Positions 29,817 to 32,342 of a stretch of DNA of 32,724 nt are shown here, piece after piece (the stretch's first letter is position 1; the number at the start of each line of letters is the position of its first letter). The notes beneath the pieces were generated by a model, which was not told the DNA's origin, did not search any database, and worked only from the letters and a program-made list of their open reading frames with translations. Source of the stretch: an uncultured Alphaproteobacteria bacterium (lineage in GTDB: Bacteria; Pseudomonadota; Alphaproteobacteria; UBA7887). The DNA is taken from positions 1 to 32,724 of the forward strand of contig CACETT010000013.1 of NCBI GenBank assembly GCA_902562525.1, read 5' to 3'. Both the position numbers and the translations under genes were made by a program.

Positions 29817-30263
29817 CTAATCGCGCCATTTCAACTTGGCTTCATCATCGCTCTCACGAGCTCCAACCCAGCCACCTGTCTGTCCATCTTCTTCATATTT
29901 CCAAAAAGGGGCATCTGTTTTAAGCCAATCAATCAAAAAATGGCATGACTCCAATGCTGCATCCCTATGGGCGGAGGCAGTAATTACTAAAACAATTTGC
30001 TCTCCAACTGCCAACTTTCCATAACGATGCACAATCAAGACATTGGCTAAGTCCCAGCGCGCTCTGGCCTGTTGCTCAATATCCGCTAATTTGCGCTCCG
30101 TCATACCGGGATAATGCTCCAAAGTCATAAAACCACTTGGCCCAGACCCGGTATCGCGCACTACACCAACAAAACTGGCAATTCCTCCAACAGCAAAGTC
30201 CCCTTCGCAAACCTCTGCTATCTCTGCACCAACATCAAATTTTCCCTGCTGAACACGGATCAC
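29817..30263 (-). CDS. moaE: molybdopterin synthase catalytic subunit MoaE
   Basis: 148 aa, GTG start; GGIASFVGVVRD, LEHYPGMTERKLADI, VLIVHRYGKLAVGEQIVLV, HRDAALESCHFLIDWLKTDAPFWKYE. Confidence 0.95.
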   Translation of the reverse strand: MIRVQQGKFDVGAEIAEVCEGDFAVGGIASFVGVVRDTGSGPSGFMTLEHYPGMTERKLADIEQQARARWDLANVLIVHRYGKLAVGEQIVLVITASAHRDAALESCHFLIDWLKTDAPFWKYEEDGQTGGWVGARESDDEAKLKWRD

Positions 30264-30526
30264 GTAACACCATCCAGTCCGCCTGTTACCGGCGGGAAAA
30301 GTGCGACTTCATCGTCCGGGGCAAGCACATGGTCAAAAGGGACATACTCCTGATTGACCGCAACACGCACCACTGATCGATCCTGCAAAGCTTCTAGATA
30401 AGTCGGCCCACGTTGACCAAGCCAATCCAGAAATTCGCTCACAGTGGTCACCTCCTCCGGCAACTCCAACGTCTCTTCACCAATTCCTATTTTGGTTCTA
30501 AGCCACGCAAAATACAAAACATTCAT
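30260..30526 (-). CDS. moaD: molybdopterin synthase sulfur carrier subunit MoaD
   Basis: 88 aa; MNVLYFAWLRTKIGIGEETLELP...VNQEYVPFDHVLAPDDEVALFPPVTGGLDGVT; adjacent to moaE, GTGA overlap. GG is not terminal. Confidence 0.95.
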   Translation of the reverse strand: MNVLYFAWLRTKIGIGEETLELPEEVTTVSEFLDWLGQRGPTYLEALQDRSVVRVAVNQEYVPFDHVLAPDDEVALFPPVTGGLDGVT

Positions 30527-30556: not shown

Positions 30557-31837
30557 TCAGCGAAACTCGCCGAACGGCATAAATTGTACCACGCTGCCTT
30601 CAACAAGATACTCCATTTCTTCTGGCAATTCGACTAGCCCCTCTGCACACGAAATAGCGGACAAGATCCCTGCGCCTTGCTTGCCCGCCTTGTGGGCCAC
30701 TAACTGGCCCCCGTCTCCATGATTAAGAACACACCTCAAATACTCGCGCCGGTGTGGTTTTTTTTGGTAGGAAAAACCAGCCACTACGGGATAAAGCCTT
30801 GGCGATGGACCCTTGCCTCCCGCTAGTAGCATAATTAACTCTCTTCCGAACTGGAGAAAGGTAACAATAACAGCCGCTGGATTTCCCGGTAACCCGAGGT
30901 AGGGCACCACACGATCTGGAACATCAATAGTACCCAAGGCTAAGGGGCGCCCCGGCTTAATAGCTAGCCGCCAGAGATCAATTCGACCAATTTCTTCTAT
31001 GGCCGCACGAATATAGTCTTCCTCACCAACAGAAACACCACCGGAACTTATCAAAAGATCATGAGATTGGGCGGCCTGGGCAATAGCTCCTCGACATTCT
31101 TCGAGTTTATCAGGCAAAATCCCAAGATCAGTAACTACACAGCCCAAAGCTTTCAGAAGGCCCCTTAAAACTATACGATTAGAATCATAGATTTGACCTG
31201 GGCCGAGGTTGGATCCTGGCTCACAGACCTCATCGCCACTAGAAAATAAGGCAACCTTTAGCCTGGCAAATGTACTTACTTCTCCGACTCCCACGGAGGT
31301 GATCAGCGCCTGATCAATTGCGGTTATTTTCCGCCCTGCTTTCAAGACAACGGCTCCTGCTAGCACATCTTCTCCCATAGGCCGCACATTGGCACCTTTT
31401 GGAATACCCGGGGGCATCCACACTCTATCGCCCGACCTGCGGCAATCTTCCTGCATTATTACCGTGTCTGGTCCGGCGTCTCCCTCACCCTCAGGAATCA
31501 TGGCCCCAGTAAAAACACGGAATGCCATTTGTCGCTTGGCTTGTCCCAAAAAGGGGTGGCCAGCTGGAACTCTGCCTTGCACCTTTAGCTCAGTTTCCCC
31601 TTTGGAATTGAGATCAGAGTGATACACAGCATATCCGTCAACCGCGGAGTTAGTATGAGGGGGAACACTACCATTGGCCTTTACATCGCAGGCAAGTATT
31701 CTGCCTCTGGCCTCTGACACCTCCACGCTTTCAATTACACAAGTGACATCCAGACGGGACCTGATAAGATCCAGCCCCTCTTCTAACCGCATTAGCTCAC
31801 CGCCGTGAACGAAACAATCCTGACTAAGTTGGGTCAT
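30557..31837 (-). CDS. moeA: molybdopterin molybdotransferase MoeA
   Basis: 426 aa; PPHTNSAVDGYAVY, VFTGAMIPEGEGDAGPDTVIMQED, DLLISSGGVSVGEEDYI, KPGRPLALG, LPGNPAAVIVTF. Confidence 0.96.
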   Translation of the reverse strand: MTQLSQDCFVHGGELMRLEEGLDLIRSRLDVTCVIESVEVSEARGRILACDVKANGSVPPHTNSAVDGYAVYHSDLNSKGETELKVQGRVPAGHPFLGQAKRQMAFRVFTGAMIPEGEGDAGPDTVIMQEDCRRSGDRVWMPPGIPKGANVRPMGEDVLAGAVVLKAGRKITAIDQALITSVGVGEVSTFARLKVALFSSGDEVCEPGSNLGPGQIYDSNRIVLRGLLKALGCVVTDLGILPDKLEECRGAIAQAAQSHDLLISSGGVSVGEEDYIRAAIEEIGRIDLWRLAIKPGRPLALGTIDVPDRVVPYLGLPGNPAAVIVTFLQFGRELIMLLAGGKGPSPRLYPVVAGFSYQKKPHRREYLRCVLNHGDGGQLVAHKAGKQGAGILSAISCAEGLVELPEEMEYLVEGSVVQFMPFGEFR

Positions 31838-32342
31838 AATTTGGCATCATTATCTGATAACGGCTCACCACAAACCTTGCTAGGCCTTCAACATCATTGG
31901 GCCGAAAGAGTGTTTGCTCACTGGATGGAAGGGCGTCATCTGTAACCACAGCCACAATCTTAGAATCTTCGGGGCAAAGCAGCGGCTTTCCTAACTCCGC
32001 CCGATACACCTCAATCTTCTCGTGGTGACCAAATTTAAAACCTTCGACTAAGACCAAATCCACGTCCGACATCTTGTCTAACAGCTCCTCCAACGACGGT
32101 TCATCCTCGCACCGCAACTCATGCATTAATGCCCATCGTTTGGCAGAACCCACCAGGACTTCATGAGCCCCAGCCATTCGGTGCTTAAAAGAGTCCTTTC
32201 TTTTTTTATCGATATCAAATTCATGATGCGCATGCTTTATCGTCGAGACAGTTATACCATAACCAACCAGGATCCCAATCAGGCGAGTTATTAGCGTGGT
32301 CTTCCCACTGCCACTCCAACCAGCTACTCCCAGGACCTGCAT
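31824..32342 (-). CDS. mobB: molybdopterin-guanine dinucleotide biosynthesis protein MobB
   Basis: 172 aa; GVAGWSGSGKTTLITRLIGILVGYGITVSTIKHAHHEFDIDKKRKDSFKHRMAGAHEVLVGS, VLVEGFK. Confidence 0.96.
   Translation of the reverse strand: MQVLGVAGWSGSGKTTLITRLIGILVGYGITVSTIKHAHHEFDIDKKRKDSFKHRMAGAHEVLVGSAKRWALMHELRCEDEPSLEELLDKMSDVDLVLVEGFKFGHHEKIEVYRAELGKPLLCPEDSKIVAVVTDDALPSSEQTLFRPNDVEGLARFVVSRYQIMMPNYDPT

Follow-up and report, generated by a model that had tools for sequence, protein, structure and literature searches.

How can a sulfur carrier function when further residues follow its C-terminal Gly-Gly? This question is raised by the molybdopterin synthase carrier MoaD encoded in the window, a stretch of 32,724 nucleotides (nt) from an uncultured alphaproteobacterium of the lineage UBA7887 (assembly GCA_902562525.1, contig CACETT010000013.1, positions 1 to 32,724). 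The initial annotation had pointed out the additional residues and suggested that either the host has a processing protease, or the canonical stop codon was lost and another MoaD copy does the job. A precedent for processing is the capped carrier QbsE with its JAMM partner QbsD. From the comparison of genomes, we consider it likely that a JAMM protease trims MoaD after the Gly-Gly, and that the presence of this protease lets tails arise where moaD overlaps the downstream gene moaE.

The moaD open reading frame (ORF) comprises 88 residues (30260-30526, minus strand) and has the C-terminus FPPVTGGLDGVT, that is, ...ALFPPVTGG-LDGVT-stop. Its last codons, read on the minus strand from 30283 to 30260, are GGC GGA CTG GAT GGT GTT ACG TGA. 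The MoaD profile TIGR01682 matches the product with 93.3 bits (cut-off 66.15) over residues 1-83 and stops at Gly83, and the Pfam ThiS match likewise stops at residue 83. The tail is thus outside the MoaD family domain, which is encoded by a core of 83 codons from M1 to Gly83 (...FPPVTGG, 30278-30526, minus strand). The closest solved structures to this core are those of Escherichia coli MoaD (1fm0 and 1jw9), both of which end at the equivalent Gly. Gly82-Gly83 (GGC GGA, 30278-30283, minus strand), the expected site of cleavage and thiocarboxylation, are invariant across an alignment of 40 sequences. In a structure model, the carrier domain has a mean predicted local distance difference test score (pLDDT) of 92, and residues 84-88 have a pLDDT below 50, so that the tail is predicted to be a flexible, disordered extension. 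The encoded protein does not carry Gly-Gly at its extreme C-terminus, as is typical of MoaD, although the mature protein may do so once trimmed.

To place the tail in context, we compared the window's own metagenome-assembled genome (MAG; G000, 63% complete) to its relatives. In most of them, the moaD stop codon follows immediately after the Gly-Gly, and five extra residues are therefore unusual. The other genome of the same genus that was compared (G001, 99% complete) encodes GG-LGGGT-stop, with identical frame, tail length and moaE overlap. Between these two genomes, 19 of the 83 core codons differ, with five amino-acid changes and no frameshift; in the tail, two of the five codons differ and both differences change the amino acid. 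Furthermore, three genomes of another genus in the same family (G005, G006 and G007) have the five-residue tails RGDVG, RGGQG and CGGPG. The fourth genome of that genus (G008, L269:5039-5290, 91% complete) has no MoaD tail. Neither was a JAMM gene detected there, whereas the other three genus members have both; a joint loss of tail and JAMM is possible in this genome. The tail noted in the initial annotation is thus borne out by the sequence, by the end of the profile match and by the C-termini of the relatives.

The position of the stop codon offers a clue to the origin of the tail. The stop codon TGA of moaD (30262-30260) and the start codon GTG of moaE (30263-30261) share a GTGA overlap (30260-30263, minus strand). 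The gene moaE (29817-30263, minus strand) encodes the catalytic subunit of molybdopterin synthase with 148 amino acids (Pfam MoaE, 116.7 bits). The tail is present because the moaD frame continues into the moaE start. The proposed loss of the canonical stop is correct insofar as no stop follows the Gly-Gly, but the account is incomplete: the stop is found inside the moaE start (ACGTGA), an overlap that the initial annotation missed, and this arrangement is recurrent. A stop codon separates the two genes, and MoaD and MoaE are thus not one polypeptide in the window. The nucleotides of the five tail codons (30263-30277, minus strand) double as the moaE leader and contain a candidate Shine-Dalgarno region, GGATGGTG (30268-30275, minus strand), whose predicted duplex with the anti-Shine-Dalgarno sequence has an energy of -9.3 kcal/mol over a bulge. 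Throughout the window's family the match falls within the tail codons; it is weak in the window genome and clear in G005-G007 (GGAG or GGAGG, with GGAGG in G006 and G007). In many of the JAMM-positive tailed genomes with a separate moaE, it is the codons for Gly-Gly (GGAGG, GGGGG) that best match the anti-Shine-Dalgarno sequence, at a distance of 6 or 9 nt from the start of moaE. In untailed genomes the distance from the Gly-Gly to the moaE start is similar (mostly 5-10 nt), with the moaD stop placed in between. As a side observation, the Gly-Gly codons (GGNGG) lie 5-10 nt ahead of the moaE start in most sampled junctions of Alphaproteobacteria; the conserved moaD C-terminus may thus double as the moaE Shine-Dalgarno sequence.

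A tail of this kind would need a protease. The window genome encodes one JAMM protein of 142 amino acids (G000:C1:50623-51048; PF14464, Prok-JAB, 76.8 bits), and G001 has the orthologue at the same genomic place (G001:C1:143383-143808). The gene is flanked by what we take, from reading the ORFs, to be an rluD-like gene and a threonine-aldolase-like gene. The protein has the features of a JAMM/MPN+ protease: the catalytic Glu (PEEACGLL) and the HxH and S-x-x-D elements (HSHPNGPAKPSKID). All full-length JAMM proteins read from tailed genomes retain the Glu, HxHP and S-x-x-D (the copy in G211 is interrupted by the contig end); in the three JAMM-bearing genomes with MoaD-MoaE fusions, the motif reads HGHP. 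The closest solved structures are 2kcq (a Mov34/MPN/PAD-1-type protein), 2kks and JAMM1 (5lda). With the haloarchaeal desampylase model NF041370, the protein scores 81.3 bits, below the cut-off of 130; judged by this score, it is related to the desampylase but is not that equivalog.

We next asked if tails and JAMM occur together across the class. The survey included 387 alphaproteobacterial genomes, which are the window's own and others that are at least 90% complete. The moaD end was recognised by the motif FPP[VIM]TGG in 226 of these, and JAMM was called at an E-value of 1e-8 or better in 99. The search for tails used two patterns that do not match when a stop follows directly, and every match was then read; tails starting with TGG were outside this search. 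Matches in G147, G256, G078, G195, G198, G329 and G281 were dropped as chance matches outside moaD, as were antisense matches in G277 and G402. We found residues after the Gly-Gly in 22 of the 226 moaD genes: 18 tails of 1-10 residues and four in-frame MoaD-MoaE fusions (G041, G155, G235 and G062). Apart from the window's family, 13 families include tailed members, and almost every lineage has its own tail sequence. G380 was counted as untailed; its MoaD (L343) ends GG-W-GG, with a second Gly-Gly closing the three-residue extension, and JAMM is present in this genome.

JAMM was detected in 19 of the 22 tailed genomes compared to 68 of the 204 untailed genomes (Fisher's exact test, p = 1.7e-6). 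The association is also found at the level of families, which are not fully independent in this census: a tailed member is present in 12 of the 36 families with JAMM and in 2 of the 51 without (p = 5.6e-4). It is retained when the window's family and the fusions are removed (p = 1.4e-4). The processing protease, one of the two possibilities raised initially, is thus supported by this co-occurrence as well as by the intact JAMM genes in G000 and G001.

The census contains 16 JAMM-positive tailed genomes in which moaE is a separate gene. All of them have a moaD stop that overlaps with the start of moaE, and 15 of these overlaps are of the four-base form RTGA/TTGA. The tail/overlap arrangement arose repeatedly, and no fewer than 14 changes of the tail state are required on a MoaE tree. 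In addition to the tails given above, we observed for instance RG, AP, SA and KGR. We reject a conserved functional peptide since the sequences differ among lineages, and this lack of conservation fits a piece that is discarded. We conclude that the tail is probably a spacer before the moaE start that is translated in frame, rather than a peptide with a job of its own. Furthermore, in most families the untailed relatives carry JAMM too. This suggests that JAMM predates the tails in most lineages and permits them without depending on them.

These observations can be joined into the following scenario. The GTGA overlap would couple the translation of moaD and moaE, and with the moaE ribosome-binding region in the last moaD codons, MoaD would be made with the five-residue cap LDGVT after its Gly-Gly. 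The unlinked JAMM protein (G000:C1, 142 amino acids) would cut the cap off after Gly83, and the freed C-terminus could then be adenylated by MoeB and thiocarboxylated for molybdopterin synthase. Where JAMM is present, the moaD stop would be free to slide downstream into the moaE start.

Several characterised systems resemble this scenario. MoeB adenylates MoaD, which is thiocarboxylated at the terminal Gly; neither of the two glycines is dispensable, and MoaX, the MoaD-MoaE fusion of Mycobacterium tuberculosis, is inactive when uncut (PMC4326299, citing Schmitz 2007). MoaX is likewise a molybdenum-cofactor carrier in which more residues follow the Gly-Gly, and it is functional only if cut between Gly82 and Ser83 (PMC4326299); the window's MoaD is not fused. 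In Deinococcus radiodurans, the separately encoded DRJAMM (DR0402) cuts the MoaD-MoaE fusion DR2607 so that a Gly forms the new C-terminus, and activation of the fusion depends on this protease (PMC8832034). Here too protein extends beyond the Gly-Gly of the molybdopterin synthase carrier. In contrast to DR2607, for which cleavage has been demonstrated, the window has a five-residue cap and a stop overlapping the moaE start; by analogy to MoaX and DR2607, we infer that its MoaD is cut after the Gly-Gly. Short caps are also found in PtmS2/PtmS1 and QbsE/QbsD; the carriers PtmS2 (cap MV) and PtmS3 (cap C) are described as dependent on a protease of the type of QbsD, a JAMM enzyme (PMC6006322). 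The window shares with the QbsE and PtmS2 type a short cap after an intact Gly-Gly and a JAMM gene in the genome. The latter carriers serve secondary metabolites and their protease gene is clustered with them, whereas the window has a housekeeping MoaD and a JAMM gene on a contig other than that of the moa genes, thus not adjoining the carrier gene. The role that we propose for JAMM is the one predicted in 2006 by Iyer, Burroughs and Aravind, who suggested that JAB proteases free fused ThiS and MoaD (PMC1779556); the association reported here is one of co-occurrence and not of linkage. Hence, the case fits the known scheme of JAMM and capped carriers with good comparative support, and what differs is a short cap that is created by gene overlap.

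Some of our results weigh against trimming by JAMM. With the window's JAMM as query, JAMM was undetected in three tailed genomes (G308, G062 and G158), and the same query gave no convincing match in G008 and G004. The first of these genomes has the tail AP and is 92% complete in 440 contigs; JAMM is present in each of the four other census genomes that share its family. G158 is essentially complete and has a one-residue tail (H). G062 (92% complete) carries both a MoaD-MoaE fusion (L197, C8) and a ThiS-ThiG fusion (L260, C45); either JAMM is absent from the assembly or another protease is at work. ThiS-ThiG fusions, which bury the Gly-Gly likewise, occur in G008 and G062 without a detected JAMM, so that another protease may exist. 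In addition, the JAMM gene is unlinked to the moa genes, and its presence in the 68 untailed genomes implies that JAMM has other work. An independent-pairs test yielded p = 0.5, with too few well-supported pairs for power. Because of the JAMM-less exceptions and the ThiS-ThiG fusions in G008 and G062, we regard trimming by JAMM as likely and do not put it higher.

The same exceptions are what speaks for an alternative in which the tail is removed by another protease or by non-specific carboxypeptidases, and JAMM merely correlates with lineages that tolerate overlaps. It also agrees with this alternative that the protease cutting M. tuberculosis MoaX was left unidentified (PMC4326299). We nevertheless consider it rather unlikely, since JAMM is associated with tails at the level of both genomes and families and a JAMM enzyme makes exactly such a cut in DR2607 (PMC8832034). 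We ruled out gene adjacency as a confounder from 105 sampled junctions of untailed genomes: moaE lies at most 30 nt from moaD in 53 of 64 sampled loci without JAMM and in 30 of 41 with JAMM. The coupling of moaD and moaE is equally tight without JAMM, and adjacency thus does not account for the association. In untailed JAMM-less loci with an RTGA overlap, the moaD stop directly follows the Gly-Gly (G171, G237, G284 and G131).

Alternatively, MoaD might be active uncut if MoeB and MoaE tolerated a short flexible tail. The predicted disorder of the tail and the single extra residue in JAMM-less G158 would agree with this. We consider this improbable, since thiocarboxylation uses the carboxylate of the terminal Gly, which a peptide-linked tail removes; the requirement for the terminal glycines and the inactivity of uncut MoaX argue against it as well, and it does not predict the association with JAMM.

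It is more doubtful still that the window's moaD is non-functional and another carrier serves molybdopterin synthase. A ThiS-family carrier with a free LPRIGGG end, distant from MoaD, is present in G000 (L251, C30) and G001 (L253, C6) and could be invoked for this, but it reaches only 20 bits compared to the moaD cut-off of 66. The other MoaD copy proposed initially found no support: the proteins of the 99% complete G001 include no second MoaD, so that the tailed moaD is the sole real one there (its absence from G000 weighs little, as that genome is 63% complete). Furthermore, the moaD core is constrained, with only five amino-acid changes in 19 changed codons, and moaD is placed in an operon of the order mobB-moeA-moaD-moaE. 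The other members of this operon are moeA, involved in molybdenum insertion (30557-31837, minus strand; PRK10680, 402.7 bits; MoeA_N, MoCF and MoeA_C domains), and mobB (31824-32342, minus strand; TIGR00176, 153.5 bits). Lastly, we give next to no credence to an assembly or sequencing error that deleted a stop after the Gly-Gly: the window does come from an incomplete MAG, but the separate genome G001 retains frame and tail length with different codons and for practical purposes refutes such an error, and five residues likewise follow the Gly-Gly in three more genomes of the family, which are separate MAGs.

Extensions are also found on other carriers. ThiS of G001 (L377:1777-2785, G001:C20) extends twelve residues past its GGG (MGTVELKERHFD), with an overlap of 8 nt between its gene and the thiG start, and ThiS is fused in frame to ThiG in the genera of G005-G008. 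In G282 (L266, C91) and G211 (L267, C99), where the MoaD tail is ten residues long, additional ubiquitin-like carriers terminate in GG-NTER and GG-K. These observations suggest a single maturation protease that serves several carriers. A more general rule could hold across the Alphaproteobacteria, for and against which we find ourselves evenly divided: a housekeeping JAMM would mature the whole class of ubiquitin-like sulfur carriers. With JAMM present, moaD, thiS and further small carriers would no longer have to stop at Gly-Gly, so that overlaps and fusions with partner genes would evolve again and again. A tail produced by overlap would then mark a genome as one with an active protease for carrier maturation.

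JAMM proteins are encoded in about a quarter of the surveyed alphaproteobacterial genomes, mostly without an assigned substrate. The tail points to MoaD as a concrete candidate substrate in the widespread pathway of molybdenum-cofactor synthesis, and beyond it to ThiS and other carriers. For annotation, it is a warning that a MoaD with residues past its Gly-Gly is not necessarily broken. If the trimming holds, the locus would illustrate that operon architecture, otherwise constrained by the C-terminus of an encoded protein, can gain freedom through a protease.
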